The notes below the pieces were generated by a model. That model had not been told where the DNA came from, ran no database searches, and saw only the letters and a list, made by a program, of their open reading frames with translations. DNA of 44,582 nucleotides. Source: Alphaproteobacteria bacterium casp-alpha2. Lineage in GTDB: Bacteria; Pseudomonadota; Alphaproteobacteria; Rhodospirillales; Casp-alpha2. The DNA is taken from NCBI GenBank assembly GCA_001510075.1, contig LFEN01000082.1, positions 1-44,582 on the forward strand. Direction: 5' to 3'. Of the stretch, positions 166-33,235 are shown one piece after another; the stretch's first letter is position 1; the number at the start of each line of letters is the position of its first letter. A program made the position numbers and the translations under genes.

Positions 166-2718
166 GTGAATTTGAGCAATCGAAAACGATTATTGCTGCT
201 AATGGCGATCATGGCCTGCGTCGCGCTGGCCGTGGCCGGGCTGTCCATATGGACGCTCTATGAAGCCGCCTTCCACGAACGGCGCACCCATCTGCTCAAC
301 ATGACCCAGGCCGAAGCCCATTTCATCGAGAAGGAAGCCGAATTTATCAAGGAAAAGCTCAAAGGCGATCCCGACGTGATCTTCCCCATCACCGCCCTCC
401 TGGCGTCCCGCTACCAGGACACATCGCATTTTGGGGAAACAGCCGAGGTCATGATGGCCCGGCTCACAGACGGCATGATCGATTTCATCGTTCATGCCGG
501 GATTAAGCACAATCAACGCGCCAGGCCCGTTTCCCTTGCCTCCAGTTCCATGGCGCAACCCATGCGTCTGGCCCTGAACGGGGACGAAGGAACTGTTATC
601 GGGCCGGATTACGACGGGGTTCAGGTTTTGGCGGCCTATCTTCCTATCAGGCAACTTGATCTGGGAATTGTCATCAAAATTAATCTGGCGGAAATCCGCC
701 AACCCTTCGTCCGCGCCGCGACGATCAGTTTTGGCGGCGGTGTTTTTATTATCCTGCTTGGCACCCTGGCGCTCAGCCGCATCAGCACCCCCCTTGTCGA
801 AAACCTGGAAAAAGCCGTTGCCCGCCTGACCGAGGCCCAGCGCATCGCCCGGCTGGGAAACTGGGAACGCGATATCAAAACCGGCCAAGGTTGGTGGTCG
901 GAAGAAACCTACCGGATTTTCGATCTTGATCCGAATTCCCCGCCACCGACCTGGGGCGAATTCTTCGCCATGGTCCATCCCGATGACCTGCCCCGGGTGC
1001 AATCGGCCGTCGACCGCTGCAAGGCGGGTAAAGAACCTTATTCCATCGAATACAGAATTTCAGATTCCGACGGCAAACAACGGATCATTTACGAACGCGG
1101 CACCTGGCGTGTCGATGCCTTTGCCAATCCGGTTCATATCAGCGGCACCCTCCAGGACATCACCATGCGCCGGCAGGCGGAAGTAGCCCTGGATCGCCAG
1201 AAGACCCTGTTCGAGGCGGTGTTCCGGGATACTCCAGATTGCATGGTCATCGCCGATGAGGATCGTAAAATGATCCTGTGCAACACGGCCTTTTTGACCA
1301 TCTTCAGGTACGAACAAAACGACATCGAAGGGCAGAACACTGCCATGTTATATGAGAGCAAAGAAGAACACGAACGCCAGGGACAAGCCCGTTTTAATCT
1401 CAGCGCCGAAAAGAAACTGGAACCTTATGTCGTCAATTACCGGCGCAAAGACGGCACGGTCTTTCCAGGCGAAACGGTAGGCACGGCCATCCGCGACGGA
1501 TCTGGAAATACGCTTGGGTATATCGCCGTGATCCGGGACATCACCGAGCGCAATCGCGCCGAAGCGACACTCAGGGAAAGCGAGGAACGTTTCCGCGATT
1601 TTTCCGAAGCCGCATCGGACTGGTTCTGGGAAATGGATGAAAATCTGCGCCTCACCTATTTCTCCGGCCGGTTCACGGAGATCAGCGGCATCGCCAACGA
1701 AGACCTGATCGGCAAAACGAGGCAAAAATCCGGCCTCGATATGGAAGACAAAAATATTCTCCGCAACATTGCCGATTTGGAAGCCCACCGCCCGTTCAAA
1801 GATTTCGAACACGCCCGCACCCTTGCCAACGGCGACATTGTCTACATGTCGACAATGGGCAAACCTGTATTTGATGCCGACGGCAATTTCAAAGGCTACC
1901 GGGGAACCGGCAGGGACATCACCGAGCGCAAGCAGGTGGAAGAAGATCTTCGCCATGCCCTTGTCCGGGCGGAAGAGGCAAACCATGCCAAGTCCGTGTT
2001 CCTGGCCACCATGAGCCACGAGTTGCGGACACCGCTGAATTCCATCATCGGCTTTTCCGATACCATCAAGGCCCAGATATTCGGTGCCCTGGGTTCGCCC
2101 AAGTACCTGGAATACGCCTGCGACATCAATGCATCAGGCACCCATCTTCTCGATGTCATTACCGATATTCTGGATATTTCGAAAATCGAGGCCGGCGAAA
2201 CCCAGATTACAGAAGAAGACGTCGAGCTTATTTCCCTGGTCGAATCGGGCATCAAGATGCTGCAAGAGCGGGCCGAAAACGACGGCATTACGCTTTCGCG
2301 CATATTCCCCAATGACTGCCCCCTGTTGCGCGCCGATGCGCGCTACATCAAACAAATCATCATCAACCTTGTCTCCAATGCGGTTAAATTCACCGAGCGG
2401 GGCGGCGCGGTGAGCCTGGAAATCACCCTGGACGACAACAACGCCGTCTTGCTCACCGTCACCGATACCGGCGTCGGCATTGATGAGGCCAATATCGACA
2501 AAGTCTTGGAACCGTTCAGCCAGGTGGGGGACATTTATTCCCGCAGTTTTGAAGGCACCGGGCTCGGGCTGCCGCTGGCCAAATCCCTGACCGAGCTTCA
2601 CGGCGGAACCCTGGAAATCAATAGCCAGCCGGGCAAGGGAACGGTGGTCATGGTCCGCTTCCCGCCGGAACGGACGATTGCGAGCGCCACTGCCGACAGG
2701 GTCGCCTCAAACGATTAG
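166..2718 (+). CDS. Membrane-bound multi-PAS sensor histidine kinase
   Basis: Autophosphorylating sensor kinase of a two-component system. From the chosen GTG start it has about 850 residues: membrane segment ~8-30, an extracytoplasmic sensing region ~31-185, membrane segment ~186-206, then three PAS domains (~221-340, 345-468, 475-590), each ending in a D-I-T box. The HisKA domain has the phospho-acceptor in SHELRTPLN (His ~618). The ATPase domain shows the N box (NLVSNAVKF), DTGVGID and GTGLGLPLA. There is no receiver domain, so the partner regulator is elsewhere. The frame is open from an ATG at 40, but those 42 extra residues look non-coding and lack a ribosome site. GTG 166 follows AGGCGGGG closely and puts the first membrane helix at the N terminus. 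The signal sensed cannot be told. Confidence 0.9.
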   Translation: MNLSNRKRLLLLMAIMACVALAVAGLSIWTLYEAAFHERRTHLLNMTQAEAHFIEKEAEFIKEKLKGDPDVIFPITALLASRYQDTSHFGETAEVMMARLTDGMIDFIVHAGIKHNQRARPVSLASSSMAQPMRLALNGDEGTVIGPDYDGVQVLAAYLPIRQLDLGIVIKINLAEIRQPFVRAATISFGGGVFIILLGTLALSRISTPLVENLEKAVARLTEAQRIARLGNWERDIKTGQGWWSEETYRIFDLDPNSPPPTWGEFFAMVHPDDLPRVQSAVDRCKAGKEPYSIEYRISDSDGKQRIIYERGTWRVDAFANPVHISGTLQDITMRRQAEVALDRQKTLFEAVFRDTPDCMVIADEDRKMILCNTAFLTIFRYEQNDIEGQNTAMLYESKEEHERQGQARFNLSAEKKLEPYVVNYRRKDGTVFPGETVGTAIRDGSGNTLGYIAVIRDITERNRAEATLRESEERFRDFSEAASDWFWEMDENLRLTYFSGRFTEISGIANEDLIGKTRQKSGLDMEDKNILRNIADLEAHRPFKDFEHARTLANGDIVYMSTMGKPVFDADGNFKGYRGTGRDITERKQVEEDLRHALVRAEEANHAKSVFLATMSHELRTPLNSIIGFSDTIKAQIFGALGSPKYLEYACDINASGTHLLDVITDILDISKIEAGETQITEEDVELISLVESGIKMLQERAENDGITLSRIFPNDCPLLRADARYIKQIIINLVSNAVKFTERGGAVSLEITLDDNNAVLLTVTDTGVGIDEANIDKVLEPFSQVGDIYSRSFEGTGLGLPLAKSLTELHGGTLEINSQPGKGTVVMVRFPPERTIASATADRVASND

Positions 2719-2725
2719 CCCCCCT

Positions 2726-3616
2726 CTACCCCCCTTGGCCTCTTTTAAGCACCGCTTCGCGGCGCATGATGTAGAGCACGCTGGCGATCACAAACACCGC
2801 ACCTGTCACCGTCCAGGTATCCGGTACATGGCCCCAGATGACAAAGCCGAACAACACCGCCCAGACCATATTAAAATACTTGAACGGCGCCACCAGAGCC
2901 GCTTCGGCCAGGCGGAAGCTTTCGATCAGCAGAAAATGCGCGGTGCCGACGAGCAACCCGCTTAACGCCATCAGGCCGACATCCTTGGCCGTCATCGGCG
3001 CCCAGCCAAAAGGCGCCGTAGCGGCCCCGACAAGGACGATGACGCCGGTCGAAAAACACAGCATCGAAAGCGACGTTTCACTGGTCGATAGCTTGCGCGT
3101 CGTCACGTCCCGAAACGCCCCCATCAGGCTGGCGCACAGCGGGAACAGCCCGGCCCACTGAACGGCCTCGCCGGTCGGGCGAACCATCACCAATACGCCC
3201 GTGAGTCCGAACAATACTGCCGTCCACCGTCGCCAGCCGACATGTTCGCCCAACAACAACGGCGCCAACACGGTAATAAACAACGGCCCGGCAAAGGTAA
3301 TGGCGATAGCGTCGGGCAACGGCAGATAGCCGAGCCCGGTAATGAACAGAAACGTGCTGGCGACCATGAAAGAAGCGCGCAGCGAATGATTGCGCAAACT
3401 GTTGATGCGAAGCACGCCCGGCCCACCGGCCCGCCACACCAGCAGGGATACGGGCAGGAACACAAATACGCCGCGCATGAACATGATCTGGCCGACCGGG
3501 AAATCCCCTGTCAGCCACTTGAGGACGGCATCGTTCATGGTCAGCAGCGCGCCGCCCAGCAGCATGAAGGCAATGCCCCGGCTAGGCGAAATGGAGGTGC
3601 CGACAGGCCTTGTCAT
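2726..3616 (-). CDS. EamA-family (DMT superfamily) permease
   Basis: Inner-membrane transporter of 296 residues, the usual length for the drug/metabolite transporter superfamily. It shows about ten hydrophobic segments in two EamA repeats. The first repeat starts near residue 13 (GIAFMLLGGALLTMNDAVLKW) and the second near residue 150 (GLFPLCASLMGAFRDVTTRK). The C terminus is basic (MRREAVLKRG), as expected for a cytoplasmic tail. The start ATG overlaps the stop of the upstream Gate-domain gene in a TAATG junction, so the two are probably co-translated. The substrate cannot be predicted; members export amino acids, nucleosides or other small metabolites. Confidence 0.88.
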   Translation of the reverse strand: MTRPVGTSISPSRGIAFMLLGGALLTMNDAVLKWLTGDFPVGQIMFMRGVFVFLPVSLLVWRAGGPGVLRINSLRNHSLRASFMVASTFLFITGLGYLPLPDAIAITFAGPLFITVLAPLLLGEHVGWRRWTAVLFGLTGVLVMVRPTGEAVQWAGLFPLCASLMGAFRDVTTRKLSTSETSLSMLCFSTGVIVLVGAATAPFGWAPMTAKDVGLMALSGLLVGTAHFLLIESFRLAEAALVAPFKYFNMVWAVLFGFVIWGHVPDTWTVTGAVFVIASVLYIMRREAVLKRGQGG

Positions 3617-4995
3617 TAGGATCCGTATAGGTAGGAAACGATAAAGACGGCGGCGGCGATGCCGGCGACGTCGGCGGCCAACGCCGCCACCAGGGCGTGG
3701 CGGATGCGCCGGATCTGCACGGCGCCAAAATAGACAGCGAGCACATAGAAGGTCGTTTCCGTCGACCCCTGGAAGGTCGATACCAGATAGCCGATGTAAC
3801 TGTCGGGCCCGGTCGCCGGGTCCTGGATGATCGAGGCCAAAATGCCATAGGCCCCCGATCCGGATAACGGTCGCAACAGCGCCATGGGAAGCGCGTCCGC
3901 CGGCAGTCCGACCAGTTCGGTCACGGCGCCCAAGGGCCGGATCAGCATTTCCAGGGCGCCGGACGTTCTAAACATGGCGACGGCGACGAGAATGGCGACC
4001 AGATAGGGAATGATCCTGAGCGCCACCTGGAACCCGTCCTTGGCGCCTTCGACGAAGGCTTCGTAGACATTGACCCGGCGCGCCACACCGAACCCCAGCA
4101 ATCCCACCATCAACCCCGGAATGATCCAGGGCGCGATGCCGCGGCCGTAAAAAATCGTCAGCGGCACCAGGCCCACGATCGCGCTCAACGCCGCCACCGA
4201 TACCCAAAGCGGATAGGGTGCGCCCACATCTTGCATTGGCGCATCTTCGATCTCTACCGCCGGGGCATGCTCGGCGACAACCGGCCCCACGGGGGGTCCC
4301 ACGGGGGGTCCCACGGGGGGTCCCACGGGGGGTCCCACGGGGGGTCCCACGGGCGTGACCGGCCAATAGCGCTGACACAGTTTGGCCATGATGATCGCCA
4401 CCGTCGTCGAACAGATGGTCGCGAACAACGTCGTCGGCACGATACCGGCGGGATCAACGGAGCCGGCGGCGGCGCGAAGGGCGATGACCCCCGTCGGCAA
4501 TATCGTTACGCTTGAGGTATTGATGGCCAAAAAAAGGACCATGGCGTTGGACGCCGTGCCGGGGCTGCGGTTGAGGGTTTCCAGTTGTTGCATGGCGCGA
4601 ATACCGAACGGCGTCGCCGCATTGCCCAACCCCAACGCATTGGCCGCCATATTAAGGATCATCGAGCCCATGGCCGGGTGCTCGGCGGGAACGTCCGGGA
4701 ACAGCCGCACCATCAACGGGCGCACGGTGCGCGCGATGACGATCAAAAGCCCGCCTTCTTCGGCCACCTTCATCAGCCCCAGAAACAAAGCCATGACGCC
4801 GACAAGCCCCAACGCCAGCGTCACCGAGCCCGTCGCCCCGTCAATCATGGCCGTCGCCAGATCCTGCATTGGGCCGTGCAGCGGAACGGCTTTGTCCGTT
4901 GCCCCCGATGACGCCCCCTGGGGCATCCAGGTCAGTTGCCGGAACCCGGCAACGACGAAGGAAATCAAGACAATGGCGAAAAAGATGACGTTCAA
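3616..4995 (-). CDS. SpmA/SpmB-like fused nucleoside-recognition (Gate) domain membrane protein
   Basis: Polytopic membrane protein of 459 residues with two Gate domains in one chain, matching fused spore-maturation-protein A/B homologues found in many non-sporulating bacteria. The first half (residues ~45-200) holds NMAANALGLGNAATPFGIRAM, a typical SpmA signature. The second half (~265-455) holds LRPLSGSGAYGIL and a segment around TFQGSTETTFYVLAVYFGA, typical of SpmB. The two halves are joined by a linker of about 60 residues. That linker contains five perfect GPPV repeats (about residues 215-237) encoded by a 12-bp tandem repeat, which is not part of the family. The physiological role of these proteins is not established; a transport function is usually assumed. 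Confidence 0.85.
   Translation of the reverse strand: MNVIFFAIVLISFVVAGFRQLTWMPQGASSGATDKAVPLHGPMQDLATAMIDGATGSVTLALGLVGVMALFLGLMKVAEEGGLLIVIARTVRPLMVRLFPDVPAEHPAMGSMILNMAANALGLGNAATPFGIRAMQQLETLNRSPGTASNAMVLFLAINTSSVTILPTGVIALRAAAGSVDPAGIVPTTLFATICSTTVAIIMAKLCQRYWPVTPVGPPVGPPVGPPVGPPVGPPVGPVVAEHAPAVEIEDAPMQDVGAPYPLWVSVAALSAIVGLVPLTIFYGRGIAPWIIPGLMVGLLGFGVARRVNVYEAFVEGAKDGFQVALRIIPYLVAILVAVAMFRTSGALEMLIRPLGAVTELVGLPADALPMALLRPLSGSGAYGILASIIQDPATGPDSYIGYLVSTFQGSTETTFYVLAVYFGAVQIRRIRHALVAALAADVAGIAAAVFIVSYLYGS
4286..4353 (-). repeat. 12-bp coding minisatellite (GPPV repeats)
   Basis: Five perfect contiguous copies of the plus-strand unit CCCACGGGGGGT (4286-4345) followed by a partial copy CCCACGGG. 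It lies within the SpmAB-like gene and encodes GPPV repeated five times, then GPVV. Because the unit is a multiple of three, gain or loss of copies keeps the gene in frame. Each unit contains a run of six G. Confidence 0.95.
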
Positions 4996-27131: not shown

Positions 27132-27740
27132 TCATTCGGCTTCCAGCGCAAAAGCCTTTGCCACGTAATCCTCAAGTAGCGCCAGGCTTTCTTCGACCGA
27201 AAGTACGCCCGTGTTGACGACCAGCTCAGGTGCCTCAGGGCTCTCATAAGGGGCGGAAACACCGGTGAAGTCCGGAATTTCCCCCGACCTCGCCTTTTTG
27301 TAGTGACCCTTGGGGTCGCGTCCCTCGCATACATCGAGGCTGGCGCTCAGGTAAACCTCGTGAAAGCGGTCCTTTGCTGCCGCCCTGGCCGCGTCGCGGG
27401 CCGCCTGGTAAGGGGAAATAAAGGCGGTCACGGTAATCATCCCGGCACTCGCGTACAGCCCCGCCACCTCGCCGACACGGCGGATATTTTCCGCCCGGTC
27501 TTGCGGAGAAAAGCCGAGATCCGAATTCAAGCCGTGGCGAAGATTATCGCCATCCATGACAAAGACTTGGCGGCCTTTGGCGAACAGGCTTCGCTCCAAC
27601 TCGAACGCCAGGGTCGACTTTCCCGACCCCGGCAATCCGGTCATCCATAAAACGCCGCCTTTGTGACCTTGGCGCTGCCAGCGGTCCTGATCAGACACCC
27701 GGTGTTCGATTTCGACAATATTTTGTGATTTGATGGACAT
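27132..27740 (-). CDS. cysC: Adenylylsulfate kinase
   Basis: Phosphorylates adenosine 5'-phosphosulfate to PAPS with ATP. The 202 residues are a full stand-alone CysC: Walker A GLPGSGKST (~35-43), MDGDNLRHGLNSDLGFSPQDRAENIRRVGEVA, and the FISPY segment with the conserved serine. The CysN GTPase domain to which it is often fused is absent, and no cysD or cysN is nearby. It lies 33 bases downstream of the auxiliary lipoprotein gene, so it may be read from the Mla-like operon, though the link is not obviously functional. Confidence 0.92.
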   Translation of the reverse strand: MSIKSQNIVEIEHRVSDQDRWQRQGHKGGVLWMTGLPGSGKSTLAFELERSLFAKGRQVFVMDGDNLRHGLNSDLGFSPQDRAENIRRVGEVAGLYASAGMITVTAFISPYQAARDAARAAAKDRFHEVYLSASLDVCEGRDPKGHYKKARSGEIPDFTGVSAPYESPEAPELVVNTGVLSVEESLALLEDYVAKAFALEAE

Positions 27741-27773: not shown

Positions 27774-28382
27774 TTAACGTTTCGACAGATCGGTGATGAA
27801 TTTAGCGTAAATGGCGCTGAGCGATTTGTTCAGGGACGCCACTGCATCCCCGACCCCTTTGCCGTCTGAATCCGTTTCCATCCGGTAGGTATCGAGAAAA
27901 ATAAGTTTGCCCCCGGCTGCTTTTCTCAACCCAAGTTCAATTTCAAGCACTGCCTTGGGCTGCTCGCCGTTGATTTTTTCCAACCGTTTGATTTTTCCCG
28001 ACAGCACGTAATCGGCCGGAATTCGCAATTCAGGGGTCACCACCGTATCGGATATCTTGGCCCGGCGGAGATACGTCACCAATTCGTCGCGCAGCATCAC
28101 CGTCGGCGGCTGGGTCCAGAAATGATAATGGTATTCCTTCACCTGATAGGATTTTCCTGGTTCCGAATAGACAATGGGACGGCCCGCCGTCAGCCCGTCG
28201 GCGACAAAGCGATCGACTTCCAGGGTGCCGGGAAACAGCTTCTTGCCGACGGACGGCTCCGCCGCTTGCAGGCGATAGAACTGATCATCGGGAACCACCG
28301 GTGCGCCGCCGCAGGCGTTAAGCAATCCGGTCAGCACCCCGGCGATCACCAGGGCCGTTAAGGGAAATAATTTTTGCATCAT
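27774..28382 (-). CDS. ABC-type transport auxiliary lipoprotein (PqiC/LptE-like fold family)
   Basis: Outer-membrane-directed lipoprotein of 202 residues. The signal MMQKLFPLTALVIAGVLTGLLNAC has a lipobox with Cys24. FYRLQAAEPS and the later YHYHFWTQPPTVMLRDELVTYLR fit the ABC-transport auxiliary family that includes PqiC and accompanies MCE-type lipid transporters. It lies directly after the MlaD gene on the same strand and would connect the periplasmic MCE protein to the outer membrane. Confidence 0.87.
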   Translation of the reverse strand: MMQKLFPLTALVIAGVLTGLLNACGGAPVVPDDQFYRLQAAEPSVGKKLFPGTLEVDRFVADGLTAGRPIVYSEPGKSYQVKEYHYHFWTQPPTVMLRDELVTYLRRAKISDTVVTPELRIPADYVLSGKIKRLEKINGEQPKAVLEIELGLRKAAGGKLIFLDTYRMETDSDGKGVGDAVASLNKSLSAIYAKFITDLSKR

Positions 28383-28420
28383 CTTAAATCACCTGTTTCA
28401 AAAATTTCAGCTCGCCTAAA

Positions 28421-29395
28421 TTATTTATTGCCCTTGTCTTCCGGCGACTGGCTGCCCAGCAACAGGCCAGGGTTGGCCCTGATCTGGCGGGTGAATTCAT
28501 ACATGTTGCGTGCCGCGCCTTCCATGTTCTGGTTAATGGAATCGATGTGGCGCGAGACCGATTCGACGATGTAACGGGTTTCGTCGATGGTCTTGCGTAT
28601 ATCGCCGGATTCGCTGACGACCAATTTACCGACATCCCCGGCCATGGTGTTCATCTATATACTGGCCTCGTTGAGGTTGCTGATGACGGCTTCTAATTTT
28701 TCCCGCGTTTGCGGTGTTATCAGTTTTTGCAGCTCGTCGGCAGTACCATTCAATTTGCCCGAAAAGGACTCGATATTATCGGCGATCACGGGGACGCGCT
28801 CCGCCATCAGGGCGACGACTTCGGCCAAATCTTGCGTAACCTTGCGGACCTCCTCAAAAAGCGCCGAGGCGTCTTTCTCGATAATGCCGTTTACGTTGCC
28901 GACCGCCCTGTTGACGTTTTCCAACAGCGGCTTGATGTTGGAGTCCATTAAATCGCCCAACTGCCCGGCGACACCGGAAACAACGGCGAAAACATCTGAA
29001 CGTTCCTTGGAAATGATCATCTCGCCGGGCTTCAGCGAGACCTTGTCGTTGCCTGCTTTGACGCTGATCGTCACCGCGGCCAACAAGCCCGGCGCTGCGA
29101 TTTCGCCGATGCTGTCCTTGGGGATGCGCCAGTCCTTAATGATGCTGAAATCAATGCGGAACCGCATGCGCCCGTCTTTTTCTTCCGGCGTGATTTCTTC
29201 GACCTGGCCGATGGGGTAGCCCTCATAGACGACCTGGGTGCCGAATTTGATTCCGGTAACATTGGAATAATACGTGAAATAATTATCCACGGCCCCGGTT
29301 CGCCCGGTGAGCATGGCGACCGTCATGATCACCGCACCAATGATGGTCATAACGAACAGGCCAACGATGAAATAATTTATCTTAGCGCTTCTCAT
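28421..29395 (-). pseudogene. MlaD-like MCE-domain protein, split by an in-frame amber codon
   Basis: Periplasmic substrate-binding component of an Mla-type lipid transporter. One N-terminal membrane helix (~7-30) anchors it. The MCE domain follows (~38-115; YSNVTGIKFGTQVVYEGYPIGQVEEI), then a long helical region. TAG at 28655-28657 stops it after residue 246 (NLNEASI). The same frame continues at once with ATG (MNTMAGDVGKLVVSES) for 77 residues to 28421, giving ~324 residues when joined, a normal length. The MCE domain itself is intact, so a truncated product might keep function; reinitiation at the adjacent ATG is possible. Starts in an ATGA overlap with mlaF. A real mutation and a base-call error cannot be told apart. 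Confidence 0.85.
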
Positions 29396-30228
29396 AAGGG
29401 CCGGCTCCCTGCTTCAAATTTTTCACCCGTAAGCCGAGCCAGATATTCATCCGGGTCCATGGTGTCGTCTTCGGGCACACGGTTTAAAAGGTTGTAGATA
29501 CGTTCGTTGCTGGAACTGCGGACTTCTTCGACAGTCCCGACCATGAGAATGTCGCCCCGGTCCAGCACGGTAATACGGTCGGCGATCTTGAAGGCACTTT
29601 CCAGCTCATGGGTGACGACGACGATGGTCATGCCCATGGCTTCCCTGAGATTAAGGATCAAATCGTCCAGCGCGGAAGCGACAGCCGGGTCAAGCCCGGC
29701 GGATGGTTCGTCGCAGAAAAGGATCTTCGGGTCCATGATGATGGCGCGGGCAAAGGCGGCGCGCTTGATCATGCCGCCCGAAAGCTCAGCCGGGGTCAAA
29801 TCCTCGAAGCCGCCTAATTCAACCACCTGGAGCTTCATTCGGGCCATGATCTCCATCGTCGACCATTCCAGATCGGTGTGTTCATAGAGCGGCAACATGA
29901 CGTTTTCGCCGACCGTCAACGAGCTGAACAACGCCCCACCTTGAAACGCCACCCCCAGCTTCTTGCGCAGTTCAACAAATTCAAGCGCGCTCAGTTTGTC
30001 GATGTCCCGGCCGAGAATACGCATGGTGCCCGACGTCTTCGTCTCCAAGGCCATTAAATGGCGAAGCAGGGTGCTTTTGCCCGACCCGCTGCCGCCCATA
30101 ATGACCATGATCTCGCCCTCGTGGACATCCAGGGTGATGCCGTTGAGAATTTTACGATCCCCATAATGGGTGACCAGGTTTTCAACCTCGATGACCGAAT
30201 TGGGCGATTTTTGTTCGTTTTGCGTCAT
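29392..30228 (-). CDS. mlaF: Mla-type lipid ABC transporter ATP-binding protein
   Basis: Cytoplasmic ATPase of 278 residues that drives MlaE. Walker A GGSGSGKST (~45-53), signature LSGGMIKRAAFARA, Walker B ILFCDEPSAGLDP and the switch His in VVVTHELES are all present. The signature variant LSGGMxKR is typical of MlaF-type ATPases. It lies 22 bases after mlaE and overlaps mlaD by ATGA. In E. coli, MlaF also binds the STAS protein MlaB; here a STAS gene is two genes upstream. Confidence 0.93.
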   Translation of the reverse strand: MTQNEQKSPNSVIEVENLVTHYGDRKILNGITLDVHEGEIMVIMGGSGSGKSTLLRHLMALETKTSGTMRILGRDIDKLSALEFVELRKKLGVAFQGGALFSSLTVGENVMLPLYEHTDLEWSTMEIMARMKLQVVELGGFEDLTPAELSGGMIKRAAFARAIIMDPKILFCDEPSAGLDPAVASALDDLILNLREAMGMTIVVVTHELESAFKIADRITVLDRGDILMVGTVEEVRSSSNERIYNLLNRVPEDDTMDPDEYLARLTGEKFEAGSRPL

Positions 30229-30250
30229 TTTATCGAGCTCTTCCCGGCGC

Positions 30251-31066
30251 CTATAGGGTCGACAGAATAACGACGACCATGGCCGTCACAATGATCGCGG
30301 AAATAGCCTGAACGACTGATCGTGTCGTAGCTTTGCCGACACCCTCCGCGCCGCCCTCAACGCTGGCCCCATTAACGACGCCAATGACCGCTATTTCGAT
30401 GGCGTAAATAACGCTTTTGCCGAGGCCATGAAGGACATCGTCAATGGTCAGAATATCGATAATCTGATCAAGATAGGCGGCCAGTGATATCCCGAGTTCG
30501 ACGTTGATGTAGATGCCCGCCAGATAGAGGCCGACGACATTGCTCATCATCGTCAAACAGGGGACCATGATCAGCATCGCAATCAGCGGCGGCGCCACCA
30601 GAAAGCGTATCGGGCTGACCCCCATGACCTTCAGCGCGTCGATTTCCTGATTGATCTTCATCGTGCCGATGCGGGCCGCCAACGCCGACCCCGAGCGCCC
30701 GGCGACCAGAATGCCGGTGATCATGGGCGCAAATTCCCTGACCACGATGAAGGCAAGGCCGGCCGTGACATGGCTTTCGGCGCCGAAAATACGCAGCGTA
30801 TAGATGCCCTGGATCGCCAGGGTGACGCTGATTGATCCGCCAAGCAGGGCGATGATGGGGATGGCGGAAATGCCAATATCCATCATCTGCTGGATAACCG
30901 CATTGAGCCTGACGGGTTGCTTCATACGGTAACCGAAGAACAGCCAATAAAGACTTTCCGCCACCATCACGCCGCCGTTGCCGACTTCTTCGATGCCGGC
31001 AACCGTCGTCCGCCCGACCTTGTCGAAAAACCGGCCAATGGCGCTTTTAGGGGTTGTTGATTCCAT
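30251..31066 (-). CDS. mlaE: Mla-type lipid ABC transporter permease
   Basis: Inner-membrane permease of 271 residues with the MlaE (DUF140) pattern: an amphipathic N terminus, about five membrane segments, and the signature GRSGSALAARIGTMKINQEIDAL (~123-145) followed by PIRFLVAPPLIAM. The transporter exchanges phospholipids or related lipids between the membranes. It starts 7 bases after the STAS gene, indicating one operon. Confidence 0.93.
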   Translation of the reverse strand: MESTTPKSAIGRFFDKVGRTTVAGIEEVGNGGVMVAESLYWLFFGYRMKQPVRLNAVIQQMMDIGISAIPIIALLGGSISVTLAIQGIYTLRIFGAESHVTAGLAFIVVREFAPMITGILVAGRSGSALAARIGTMKINQEIDALKVMGVSPIRFLVAPPLIAMLIMVPCLTMMSNVVGLYLAGIYINVELGISLAAYLDQIIDILTIDDVLHGLGKSVIYAIEIAVIGVVNGASVEGGAEGVGKATTRSVVQAISAIIVTAMVVVILSTL

Positions 31067-31073
31067 CGTCCGC

Positions 31074-31406
31074 TTAACCGATTTCCTTCAGGGCGTCGTC
31101 GATGGTGTCACAGATGGTGAACACCTTATCCAGGCGGGCCAATTGCAATACCCGCATGGCGCCATCACTGACGGCGACAAGGATCAGGGTTGTGCCTTTT
31201 TTGCGCGCTGTCTGCAGGCTTTCGACAAGAGAGGCGACGCCGGATGAATCGATGTAATTGATAGCGCTGAGATCGACCAGCACGGGCAATGAGCGCTCGA
31301 CGCATGCCAGCAGAATGGTCCGGGCCTCCGGCGAGTTCTGCAAATCCACGTCGCCTTTAAGGGAGACGATCACGCAACCGCCTTGATCTTGAATTTCGTG
31401 TTCCAT
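31074..31406 (-). CDS. STAS-domain protein (MlaB-like / anti-sigma antagonist-like)
   Basis: Small cytoplasmic STAS protein of 110 residues. The phosphorylation segment INYIDSSGVASLVE places Ser54 exactly where SpoIIAA and RsbV are phosphorylated. E. coli MlaB, which binds MlaF, has a Thr-containing variant at this site. The gene lies between a phosphatase/kinase gene (11 bases upstream) and mlaE (7 bases downstream). It could therefore act as an MlaB subunit, as a partner-switching antagonist, or as both. Confidence 0.9.
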   Translation of the reverse strand: MEHEIQDQGGCVIVSLKGDVDLQNSPEARTILLACVERSLPVLVDLSAINYIDSSGVASLVESLQTARKKGTTLILVAVSDGAMRVLQLARLDKVFTICDTIDDALKEIG

Positions 31407-31417
31407 GTCGCCTTCCC

Positions 31418-33235
31418 TTACGTGATTCTTTTGACCATTTTCAAAAGATTACCGCCGTCGCTCGGCGGCGGCATAAACATTACCTCATCCATCACTTCGC
31501 GTATGAAATGCGTTCCCAGTCCCCCGGGGCGCACGTCATCCAAATCCCTGGGCTTGACCGCCGCCACATCAATGGTTTCGGCAAAGTCCCTGAGCAGAAT
31601 AACCAAGTCTTCACCCTTACGGCAAATTTCCATGGCAATTTCACCGTTGGGCGAGCCGCCATAGGCATGGCGAATGATATTCTGGCAGGCCTCGTCAACG
31701 GCAATAACGACATCCCGGATCACGTCTTCGCCGGCGCCGCAAAAACGCGCCGTTTCCGAAACCGCATTGCGAACCAGTTTCAGCCGGTCCGGTTGGGACG
31801 GGACGCTCAGGTGAAGCAGGACTTCCGCTTCCTCGCTCCCGGCGTCTTTTTTATCTTTGCTGCCTTTGGTGACTTTACCACCAGCAACCCTGGCCGCATG
31901 ACCGGTGGCGTCGTCGATAGCGAGCAACGTCAAATCATCACGAAGCGCCACATCGCCGCGATTGACCATGGAAATGACGGCGTTCAATCGTCCATTGATA
32001 TGAAGCGACTGGTTTTCCCTGATCAGATCCTTGAAGCCGGAGACCCCCAATTCGCGACCGTCTTCCAGATAGCCTTCGGTCACGCCATCGGTGAAGATAT
32101 AGAGTGTCCCGCCGTCGAGCTTGATCTCGATTTCTGGAAATTCACTGTTCTCCTCCATCGACGGCAAAATGCCCAACGGCGGCGCTTCGGCGGGAAAGTC
32201 GATAAATTCGCCGTCCGTGTTATGAAACAACGGCGGTTCGTGTCCGGCGTTGGCCATCCGCACGATTCCGGTTTTAGGATCGTAAATGCCGCCGGCCATG
32301 GTAACGAACATGCCGCGCGTCGCGGTTTCACAGATTTCATCATTGATGCGGGCCATCAGTCGCCCCGGTTGGCGCAGCGTTTTCCCCAAGCAGCGATACA
32401 GACTGGCCGTTTTCGCCATCATCAGGGCTGCGTTCATGCCTTTTCCGGAAACGTCGCCCAAATTGAAACAGATACGATCATCGTCGAGCACGAAGAAATC
32501 AAAAAAATCCCCGGACACGGTTCGCGCCGCGTGATTGACGCCGGCGACGGGAAAATCGTCATCGCCGGGATCAGGCAGTAACGAGCGTTGAATTTCCGCC
32601 GCCAGTTCCAGTTCGCGGGCGATCTTTTCCTGTTCCACCAGGGCCTCGGCCTGGCGCGCATTGTGAATGGCCAGGGCAGCTGATGCGCTAAGCACCTGCA
32701 GGAGGTGTAAATCGGAATCCTCGAATAGACCGTCGCCGCCCCGCTTGTTGATCAATTCAATGGCCCCGATGCGCTCACCCTTGACGCTCATCGGCGCGCA
32801 CAGGATGGACCGGGTCACCACCCCGGTTTCTTCATCAACGCCGCCGTGAAAACCGGCGTCTTTGGAAACGTCGCGGACGATTTCCCCGCTCCCATTCTGG
32901 ACACACCGCCCAACGATCCCTTGGCCCGCATTCAGGGTCAGGCCGGTAATTTCCGTCGGGCCTTCGCAGGCGTGGCAACGAAGGGTTTCGCCCTTGTCAT
33001 CCAGCAGGAACAGCGCCCCGCCTTCCGCGTCAACGTATTCCGTGATCAGTTCGATGGCGCGTTTCAGGGACGCCTCAATATCCAGGGACGAGGAAAAGTC
33101 CTGGCCCATGGCGGCGAGAAGTTCCAGATGATCATAAATCTGGGACTCGCTGCCGTCTGCGGACATCGGCGACATTTTGGAATCTGCGGCCTGACGCTTG
33201 CCCATTTGGGCGCTCCCCCGAGAGTCTAGCTTCAA
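31418..33235 (-). CDS. GAF-PP2C (SpoIIE)-HATPase partner-switching regulator
   Basis: Cytoplasmic signalling protein of 605 residues with three domains. A GAF sensor (~35-195) is followed by a SpoIIE-type PP2C phosphatase (~210-430), with metal-binding aspartates in VSGDFFDFF and LGDVSGKG plus FTDGVTEG. A C-terminal anti-sigma-type HATPase (~465-600) has the N box DEACQNIIRHAY and GGLGTHFI. It thus carries both a Ser/Thr phosphatase and a potential STAS kinase in one chain, comparable to the PP2C-plus-kinase proteins HsbR and SypE. It heads the operon STAS-mlaE-mlaF-mlaD-lipoprotein. The start could also be Met11 or a later Met. Confidence 0.9.
   Translation of the reverse strand: MKLDSRGSAQMGKRQAADSKMSPMSADGSESQIYDHLELLAAMGQDFSSSLDIEASLKRAIELITEYVDAEGGALFLLDDKGETLRCHACEGPTEITGLTLNAGQGIVGRCVQNGSGEIVRDVSKDAGFHGGVDEETGVVTRSILCAPMSVKGERIGAIELINKRGGDGLFEDSDLHLLQVLSASAALAIHNARQAEALVEQEKIARELELAAEIQRSLLPDPGDDDFPVAGVNHAARTVSGDFFDFFVLDDDRICFNLGDVSGKGMNAALMMAKTASLYRCLGKTLRQPGRLMARINDEICETATRGMFVTMAGGIYDPKTGIVRMANAGHEPPLFHNTDGEFIDFPAEAPPLGILPSMEENSEFPEIEIKLDGGTLYIFTDGVTEGYLEDGRELGVSGFKDLIRENQSLHINGRLNAVISMVNRGDVALRDDLTLLAIDDATGHAARVAGGKVTKGSKDKKDAGSEEAEVLLHLSVPSQPDRLKLVRNAVSETARFCGAGEDVIRDVVIAVDEACQNIIRHAYGGSPNGEIAMEICRKGEDLVILLRDFAETIDVAAVKPRDLDDVRPGGLGTHFIREVMDEVMFMPPPSDGGNLLKMVKRIT

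Follow-up and report, generated by a model that had tools for sequence, protein, structure and literature searches.

In Escherichia coli, the ATPase MlaF needs the STAS protein MlaB, and the MlaB substitution T52E weakens binding, according to the accessible portions of two studies (PMC5016091, PMC7367683). The same portions propose phosphorylation of MlaB at Thr52, with no kinase in hand (PMC5016091, PMC7367683). Moreover, Y261 and L265 in the C-terminal extension of MlaF pack against MlaB, as given in the available text of one of them (PMC7367683). In Brucella, the Mpc system (MpcEFDA) is described, in the part of its source that was available, as having an E-F-D-lipoprotein gene order, a long MCE protein, a PqiC-like lipoprotein and a STAS domain fused to MpcE (PMC12436622). 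Here, we describe an operon that probably encodes a phospho-switched MCE lipid transporter, in which a bifunctional enzyme would set the phosphorylation of a STAS protein and the STAS protein would gate MlaF as MlaB does. We give this reading, drawn from sequence, a probability of about 0.72.

The operon lies at positions 27774-33235 of the window (the whole stretch of DNA that was analyzed, 44,582 nucleotides) on the minus strand, as do all features given below, and encodes in order a GAF-PP2C-HATPase regulator, a STAS protein, MlaE, MlaF, an MCE protein and a PqiC-like lipoprotein. An earlier sequence-only reading had named this gene set, and all six genes are where it had put them, with Pfam matches to each. 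It had also claimed gaps of 7 to 26 bases throughout; the first three coding-region gaps, of 11, 7 and 22 bases, agree, but mlaF and mlaD overlap by 4 bases, and 38 bases separate the end of the mlaD frame from the lipoprotein gene. No sigma or anti-sigma gene was found within the operon, and mlaC is absent from it. A promoter/terminator scan gave 9 against 6.0 expected and 13 against 11.2 expected, near chance.

The regulator (31418-33235) is 605 residues long from a TTG at 33235 and 595 from an ATG at 33205, and the ATG, with GGGGGAG ahead of it, is the more likely start. Its GAF domain (residues 51-191, 32663-33085; Pfam GAF_2, 4.6e-15) is the presumed signal input. The PP2C/SpoIIE phosphatase domain follows (Pfam residues 251-440, 31916-32485; SpoIIE PF07228, 1.4e-37), with D243 just ahead of the Pfam match, and the chain ends in an RsbW/SpoIIAB-like HATPase_c_2 kinase domain (residues 478-602, 31430-31804; Pfam, 1.7e-24). 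Among aligned relatives, counting nongap rows, the PP2C aspartates are invariant (D243 in 121/121, D261 in 122/122, and D383, D433 and D434 each in 125/125); we take each of them to be a metal-binding residue, and by these residues the protein belongs with the PPM/SpoIIE-type phosphatases. The HATPase domain likewise has the marks of its kinase class: E515 (128/129, the remaining one an X) and N519 (129/129) of the N box, and D550 (the G1 Asp) and G572 and G574 (GxG), each in 129/129. Thus, the proposal that one upstream protein holds both phosphatase and kinase domains is borne out by Pfam matches and conserved catalytic residues. The glycine of the G1 box, however, is replaced (Ala in 123 of 129, Ser in 3, Gly in 3), a departure from the RsbW/SpoIIAB type. 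The HATPase region matches RsbW (6m36_A, E 9.6e-12), and at 60.6 bits against an RsbW equivalog cut-off of 145, the regulator is a relative and not an equivalog. In PADLOC, neither the regulator nor the STAS protein had a match.

The STAS protein (31074-31406, 110 residues; Pfam STAS, 3.3e-20) is a single-domain protein like RsbV and SpoIIAA. Its Ser54, the first serine of a DSSG motif and the phosphosite singled out by the sequence-only reading, is encoded by TCA at 31245-31247, aligns with Thr52 of E. coli MlaB and is serine in 131 of 131 aligned operon STAS proteins. By this motif and by its score against TIGR00377, the anti-sigma factor antagonist superfamily (75.7 bits, cut-off 53.45), the protein is of the RsbV/SpoIIAA type, and it scores below the NCBIfam MlaB family NF033618 (26.9 bits, cut-off 90), which all 59 members of A3 match with E up to 0.001 (best, 3.6e-9). 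The predicted fold has five strands and a C-terminal helix (E97-99, H102-109) and so departs from the minimal STAS fold of MlaB, with no fifth strand and no last helix. Against the kinase-bound structures of SpoIIAA and RsbV the model gave Z of 17.7-17.9, against free SpoIIAA 13.4-14.6, and against Pseudomonas aeruginosa MlaB (7cha_K) 12.7 over 95 aligned residues. Supports in the STAS tree are weak and E. coli MlaB aligns over a short stretch only, and we therefore make no claim of ancestry. Genomes commonly hold several STAS genes, and the kinase could thus act on more than a single substrate. The window's genome has a second DSSG STAS, a paralogue at C23:21513 with no adjoining kinase or phosphatase gene, and a second STAS paralogue was likewise found in genomes of the same genus. 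One operon elsewhere (G118) holds a second STAS within it, and in three genomes (G019, G023 and G056) no Pfam STAS was found besides that of the operon.

The transporter genes comprise an MlaE-type permease (30251-31066; PF02405, 1.2e-64), an MlaF-type ATPase (29392-30228; ABC_tran, 2.4e-30), an MCE gene of the MlaD type (28421-29395; MlaD, 1.5e-10) and an ABC-type transport auxiliary, PqiC-like lipoprotein (27774-28382; PF03886 ABC_trans_aux, 9.8e-12). MlaF ends in an extension, DPDEYLARLTGE (29416-29460), whose Y262 and L266 align with E. coli Y261 and L265. The extension motif occurs in 121 of 126 operon MlaF proteins and in none of 13 canonical MlaF paralogues, all of which lack a nearby STAS gene; L144 keeps the extension though no STAS gene adjoins, and L184 lacks it though one does. 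In the window, mlaD is interrupted by an in-frame amber TAG at codon 247 (28655-28657). As the frame past the TAG runs for 77 further codons that align with relatives, the gene spans 28421-29395, with 324 codons and a stop. Lacking mlaC, and with a long MCE protein as well as a PqiC-like lipoprotein, the operon does not encode a textbook Mla system; from its genes, the transporter that the sequence-only reading called Mla-type should read as an Mla/Pqi-chimera (Mpc-like) MCE transporter.

The gene order is widely conserved. Among 134 nonredundant loci with the window's MlaE type, where a verdict was given only if flanks allowed and every locus per duplicate set was counted, STAS lies upstream of MlaE in 130 of 133, HATPase in 128 of 131 and PP2C in 124 of 128; G272 is an exception. 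We conclude that the six-gene operon recurs across the bacterial order and beyond far more often than by chance. The order of phosphatase, STAS and mlaEF, whose conservation the sequence-only reading had proposed to check, is near-universal beside this MlaE type in these loci, which rules out a lone oddity of this genome. Moreover, among 61 genomes (its own and 60 relatives), 43 have both a strong regulator match (E up to 1e-85) and window-type MlaE, 12 have neither, and 3 plus 3 are discordant, 3 of the 6 being contig cuts (Fisher p 1e-7, with relatedness not corrected for). Named strains of cultured type also carry the operon: Magnetovibrio blakemorei MV-1, Terasakiella brassicae and Paramagnetospirillum caucaseum SO-1 (loci L135, L136 and L158). 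Homologous kinase-STAS pairs are coupled to MCE operons in two other orders, HATPase-STAS-mlaFEDC-PP2C, with canonical mlaFEDC between kinase-STAS and PP2C, and mlaE-x-mlaD-lipoprotein-HATPase-STAS; in a further linkage, STAS-PP2C-HATPase faces E-F-D-lipoprotein. In G398 and G682, where the operon has come apart, homologues of the kinase, the phosphatase and the STAS protein are still found elsewhere. G054 retains regulator and STAS but not this transporter, and G055 has a deletion of most of the transporter. G171 also retains regulator and STAS, and the only MlaF found there is a more distant one, with none of the operon type; thus, the STAS protein may have other targets.

We propose that MlaE, MlaF, the MCE protein and the lipoprotein would together make up an Mla/Mpc-type inner-to-outer-membrane ABC transporter for lipids. 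On MlaF, the STAS protein would replace MlaB as the small subunit, with the C-terminal extension helping to hold it. The HATPase domain would put phosphate on Ser54, the PP2C domain would strip it, and the GAF domain would tilt the balance in step with a signal from the cytoplasm. On the model of T52E in E. coli MlaB, phospho-STAS would let go of MlaF and transport would fall, and dephospho-STAS would dock and support transport. We infer the action of kinase and phosphatase on STAS, the binding of STAS to MlaF, the sign and the effect on lipid traffic. The earlier reading, in which GAF signals would set STAS phosphorylation and so switch lipid traffic, is supported in part, by the conserved order, the catalytic and acceptor residues and the MlaF docking extension. 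Partner switching proper, in which a second partner for STAS or the kinase excludes the first, is plausible, with the two docking faces on STAS expected to overlap. By mean-field DCA (Neff about 88-109), top interprotein z values were 6.2 for STAS-MlaF, 6.4 for the STAS-lipoprotein control, 5.5 for STAS-HATPase, 6.0 for STAS-MlaE and, for STAS-PP2C, 7.7 at a single pair and 5.5 at the one after it; the STAS-MlaF value did not rise above that of the control.

Several points count against the phospho-switch. In length and predicted fold the STAS protein resembles RsbV and not minimal MlaB; in the window mlaD is interrupted and the G1 box of the HATPase departs from type. The STAS-MlaF covariation at the level of the control, the two loci (L144 and L184) at which extension and adjoining STAS gene do not go together, and the genomes (G054, G055 and G171) with regulator and STAS or transporter out of step also weigh on this side. 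An arrangement in which regulator and STAS act like RsbU, RsbV and RsbW on a sigma factor, an anti-sigma factor or some other target in the cytoplasm, and are merely cotranscribed with the transporter, would suit a STAS protein over the antagonist cut-off and far under that of MlaB, and would suit the genomes (G054 and G171) that keep both proteins without the operon-type transporter. We think it unlikely, as linkage to the transporter is near-invariant in one arrangement and appears again in others, the docking extension of operon MlaFs is missing from the canonical paralogues tested, and no sigma or anti-sigma gene is in the operon. The same missing extension is why we do not favor service of the STAS protein to a canonical Mla paralogue.

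E. coli MlaB T52A keeps binding and loses ATPase activity, in the available portions of two papers (PMC7367683, PMC5016091), a result that a plain on/off phospho-switch does not accommodate. That behavior, from what was available of one of them (PMC5016091), would accord with STAS as a constitutive structural subunit like MlaB, with Ser54 kept for structure and kinase and phosphatase acting on another STAS such as that at C23:21513; in E. coli, MlaB functions although no kinase for it is known, and the window's genome does hold that second DSSG protein. The kinase and phosphatase genes, however, adjoin the operon STAS and not the paralogue, the operon STAS is the only one found in three genomes, and its motif is a near-invariant DSSG, the form seen in phosphorylated antagonists, in contrast to the DTGG of E. 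coli MlaB; we regard the idea as improbable. Signaling might also run in reverse, with the load on the transporter determining if MlaF keeps hold of STAS or leaves it free for action on the regulator or on a second STAS, such that the ABC transporter is the sensor. To this we give very little credence: the operon encodes no output protein and an input is already there in the GAF domain, even though second STAS proteins occur in genus genomes and in the G118 operon and the docking faces of kinase and MlaF should overlap.

The phospho-switch reading therefore remains the one we prefer. Judged from its genes, the operon probably shows how lipid pumps are switched, a step proposed before without an enzyme. 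Among the matches listed from open-licence literature, there was no report of a kinase or phosphatase acting on an MlaB-like STAS protein. Candidate kinase, phosphatase, acceptor and transporter stand together in one gene cluster, also in cultured-type strains, and the question of MlaB phosphorylation is thus directly testable. We lean toward a wider view in which dedicated Ser kinase/phosphatase modules, in at least three gene orders, gate MCE transporters through phosphorylation of MlaB-like STAS proteins such that a cytoplasmic signal controls lipid flow, a general and previously undescribed mechanism. If so, phosphorylation of a serine on a STAS subunit would gate an ABC lipid transporter, and partner-switch modules would extend from transcription to envelope transport.

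Rv1364c of Mycobacterium tuberculosis, which is fused to a STAS domain and sigma-factor linked, likewise has PP2C followed by HATPase in a single chain (PDB chain 3ke6, matching residues 239-535 of the regulator), and it is not known to be tied to a transporter. SypE of Vibrio fischeri also carries a PP2C domain, and SiaA and SiaB of P. aeruginosa have phosphatase and kinase roles. In the accessible portions of the sources, the serine kinase SypE controls the single-domain STAS protein SypA, a pairing like ours, with a biofilm output and no transporter named as its target (PMC10120452, PMC4517449), and SiaC of SiaABCD binds and activates SiaD (PMC8457831). The enzyme controlled there is a diguanylate cyclase. 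E. coli MlaFEDB shares a STAS subunit with an MlaE/MlaF/MCE transporter, a Thr52 aligned with Ser54 and an MlaF extension with Tyr and Leu, but its MlaB is 97 residues long without the fifth strand and last helix, and its operon has mlaC and no PqiC-like lipoprotein gene. Compared by description in the available part of its source, Brucella Mpc has the same order, long MCE protein (long in the window only if mlaD is read past the TAG), PqiC-like lipoprotein and STAS with permease, whereas STAS is fused to MpcE there and here is a separate gene behind the kinase/phosphatase (PMC12436622). Finally, the operon shares PP2C, HATPase kinase and a STAS antagonist with DSSG with RsbU-RsbV-RsbW and SpoIIE-SpoIIAA-SpoIIAB, whose output is a sigma factor; the output linked to this operon is an ABC lipid transporter.

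Operon structure at 27774-33235 on the minus strand was borne out by open reading frames and domain matches, as the sequence-only reading had it. The genes are a GAF-SpoIIE-HATPase_c_2 regulator (31418-33235), a STAS protein (31074-31406), MlaE (30251-31066), MlaF (29392-30228), the MCE protein MlaD (from 29395, in a frame that runs on to 28421), and an ABC_trans_aux lipoprotein (27774-28382). Gaps between coding sequences are 11, 7, and 22 bases, and mlaF and mlaD overlap by 4 bases. The better choice of regulator start is the ATG at 33205, which GGGGGAG precedes. An in-frame TAG interrupts mlaD at codon 247 of 324 (28655-28657), where relatives mostly have Lys, Asn, or Asp, and the frame stays open for 77 further codons that align with relatives. 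The TAG is either an assembly error or a real nonsense change in the window's genome (1.77 Mb, 84 contigs, completeness 79.6%). An adenylylsulphate kinase gene lies directly 3' of the operon (27132-27740), as at many related loci.

The regulator-STAS-mlaEF order, whose conservation had been proposed as a check, recurs. MlaE proteins of 61 genomes (the window's own and 60 relatives) formed two groups, the window type and a canonical paralogue, at ~34% identity. The full order through mlaD and the lipoprotein gene was found, where contigs permit and with few exceptions, in the flanks of 45 other window-type genomes and one remnant (L033-L078), and the picture was unchanged when flanks of the best 80 of 484 MlaE relatives were inspected in a scan of named genomes. 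Window-type MlaE is carried by 192 of the 317 genomes of the order (E up to 1e-70), from which 50 further genomes were hand-picked for spread and their flanks fetched. Pooling gave 186 loci with MlaE at >=250 bits against the profile used here, or 134, window excluded, after near-identical loci were merged. A gene was scored if it lay on the expected side and strand above a bit threshold, and a locus set was counted if any member had enough flank or showed the gene. In this set, which is defined by MlaE type itself and weighted to close relatives (the 80 named loci being the nearest of 484), upstream frequencies were 130/133 for STAS, 128/131 for HATPase, 124/128 for PP2C, and 119/124 for GAF, and downstream frequencies were 128/129 for MlaF, 125/126 for the MCE protein, and 116/119 for the lipoprotein. 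At several loci (e.g., L062, L069, and L123), two adjacent frames encode HATPase and PP2C separately.

Of the 61 genomes, 43 combine window-type MlaE with a strong regulator match (E up to 1e-85), and both are absent from 12 (Fisher p ~1e-7, a rough guide uncorrected for kinship). MlaE alone was found in three, two cut by contig ends (G012 and G021) and one with the HATPase only (G038), and the regulator alone in three: G054, G055, and G020, where the contig stops short. In the pooled set, no STAS or regulator adjoins MlaE at L144 (titled Zetaproteobacteria SZUA-181; assigned to genome G682 on identical coordinates and scores) and L219 (G398). G398 has HATPase-STAS homologues ~8 kb from MlaE and GAF-PP2C on a different contig, and G682 has HATPase-STAS and GAF-PP2C-STAS homologues elsewhere. 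The STAS, GAF-PP2C, and HATPase genes of G272 (L187 and L210) face the transporter from its downstream side, and its STAS and lipoprotein score under the thresholds used. At L228 (G426), MlaF does not adjoin MlaE; a different contig carries it together with the MCE protein and the lipoprotein. GAF-PP2C is missing from L070, where HATPase and STAS are present, and over threshold, L175 lacks GAF and L176 lacks the lipoprotein.

Genomes outside the pooled set count against the reading that the regulator acts on MlaF through STAS. In G054, STAS and a split regulator persist in the absence of operon-type MlaF; in G055 (L078), an internal deletion reaches from mlaE into the lipoprotein gene and spares regulator and STAS; and G171 has regulator and STAS while its only MCE operon is of a more distant type and located elsewhere. 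At L093 of G054 (1375-3651), a stop splits the regulator into GAF-PP2C and HATPase, STAS is present, the transporter is absent, and the neighbour is, by eye, a glutathione S-transferase-like gene. At L078 (5567-6252), an apparent deletion has removed mlaF and mlaD and joined the beginning of mlaE to that of the lipoprotein gene's reading region.

Kinase-STAS pairs also accompany transporters in other arrangements. A class-wide STAS profile search matched 17/289 genomes (E up to 1e-15). Apart from the window's own genome these number 16, of which 15 were fetched (all but G224). The operon was present in G061, G062, G097, G112, G118, G184, G322, and G335 (truncated at contig ends in G118 and G335), G207 had the order HATPase-STAS-E-F-D-lipoprotein, G272 had the facing arrangement given above, the transporter did not adjoin STAS in G171, and no linked operon was found within the fetched flanks of G141, G157, G209, and G310. 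A phylum-wide search matched 52/398 genomes (E up to 1e-18), including G794 with HATPase-STAS-mlaF-E-D-mlaC-PP2C, where Pfam confirms HATPase_c_2, STAS, MlaC, and SpoIIE. Related STAS proteins occur in 5/197 genomes of the taxonomic order to which G794 belongs (E up to 1e-15): the set is complete in G794, G1085, and G970, the same in G988 as far as the contig end, and reduced to HATPase-STAS in G1096. In the f204 family of genomes, 33/74 encode an MCE protein and 23 of those 33 also have a phylum-wide STAS match, which in 20 lies 1.3-3.0 kb downstream on the same strand. HATPase and STAS follow a lipoprotein-like gene at 9 of 11 fetched f204 MCE loci, and STAS alone does so at 2 (L273 and L283); at L201, L202, and L203, HATPase-STAS was found and no MCE gene was detected in the fetched flank. 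A conserved protein of ~230-250 aa lies between MlaE and the MCE protein at f204 loci, the place expected for MlaF (L206 5006-5770; L272 6588-7289; others). The one tested, from L206, had no Pfam match, and the protein is possibly a degenerate or replaced ATPase.

The operon STAS is RsbV-like by family, because of its fold neighbours and because its score clears the threshold for the anti-sigma factor antagonist superfamily and falls short of the one for MlaB, and it is MlaB-like by gene neighbourhood. An AlphaFold prediction from 59 sequences (mean pLDDT 95.7) gives it five strands and a final helix, a fold closest to 4hyl (Z 18.8), RsbV 6m36 (17.9), and SpoIIAA 1thn from a kinase complex (17.8), versus 13.4-14.6 for free SpoIIAA entries and 12.7 over 95 residues for MlaB 7cha_K. 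A second DSSG STAS (L080, G000:C23:21513-21818) lies apart from the operon in the window's genome, and the regulator may act on it as well. It matches the operon STAS profile closely (121-132 bits), occurs also at L191-L194 in genomes of the window's genus, and neighbours, by eye, ispD- and cutA-like genes. G118 has a second STAS inside the operon (L179 1662-2096).

Residues were counted over non-redundant loci above thresholds plus the window, leaving out 4 loci without STAS, 6 without HATPase, and 10 without a PP2C row, mostly at contig ends. In aligned operon STAS proteins, Ser54 is Ser in 131/131 and Asp53 is kept in 130/131. In the HATPase, Glu515 is found in 128/129 (one X), Asn519, Asp550, Gly572, and Gly574 each in 129/129, and Ala occupies the usual G1 glycine position in 123/129. 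PP2C residues, gaps set aside, are invariant (Asp243, 121/121; Asp261, 122/122; Asp383, Asp433, and Asp434, each 125/125). We take the roles of these residues to be those assigned from SpoIIAB and SpoIIE/RsbU work.

E. coli MlaF has a C-terminal extension in which Tyr261, Leu265, and Leu266 lie between MlaB and the neighbouring MlaF (PMC7367683). DPDEYLARLTGE of the window MlaF aligns with that extension, and a [YH][LMI]xRL motif occurs within the last 45 residues in 121/126 operon MlaFs whose C terminus is complete; of the other five, four narrowly miss the motif, and in L184 it is absent. The motif is in 0/13 canonical paralogues (one per genome, from 13 genomes of the order including the window's own), no STAS was detected by the profile used in their fetched flanks, and the motif is likewise absent from the ends of three further canonical MlaFs. 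We read this correlation as a docking feature of MlaF that appears to travel with the STAS subunit. The MlaF of L144 has the extension though STAS is not adjacent.

How the regulator might control the transporter can be proposed from the genes, order, residues, and extension, which were observed directly. The HATPase would put phosphate on STAS Ser54, and PP2C would remove it. In the predicted model, Ser54 starts helix 2 (H54-69) and would sit close to the middle of the surface by which MlaB contacts MlaF. SpoIIAA binds its kinase through that same face, and thus kinase and MlaF should exclude each other on STAS. We put the probability of the wiring from regulator through STAS phosphorylation to MlaF at 0.72. 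According to PMC7367683 and PMC5016091, MlaF depends on MlaB to be stable and the complex depends on it to assemble. Binding to MlaF is weakened by T52E, whereas T52A keeps binding and loses ATPase activity altogether; MlaB phosphorylation is hypothesised with no kinase named. That phosphate lowers transport is only slightly favoured because of the T52A result.

STAS beside Mla genes is mentioned in a survey of the neighbourhoods of MCE genes, and "phosphatase" is absent from its main text (PMC5561183); a word search of a review on single-domain STAS proteins found no Mla, ABC, or lipid (PMC8256260). A search of open-licence literature, covering few subscription papers and no bioRxiv preprints, found no description of a system of this kind. 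The operon resembles the RsbU/V/W or SypE/SypA module in its logic, but the output here is an Mla/Mpc-like transporter. By two tested features, the operon STAS is not an E. coli-type MlaB. Finally, the STAS is not fused to the permease, and therefore the transporter is not a Brucella-type Mpc.
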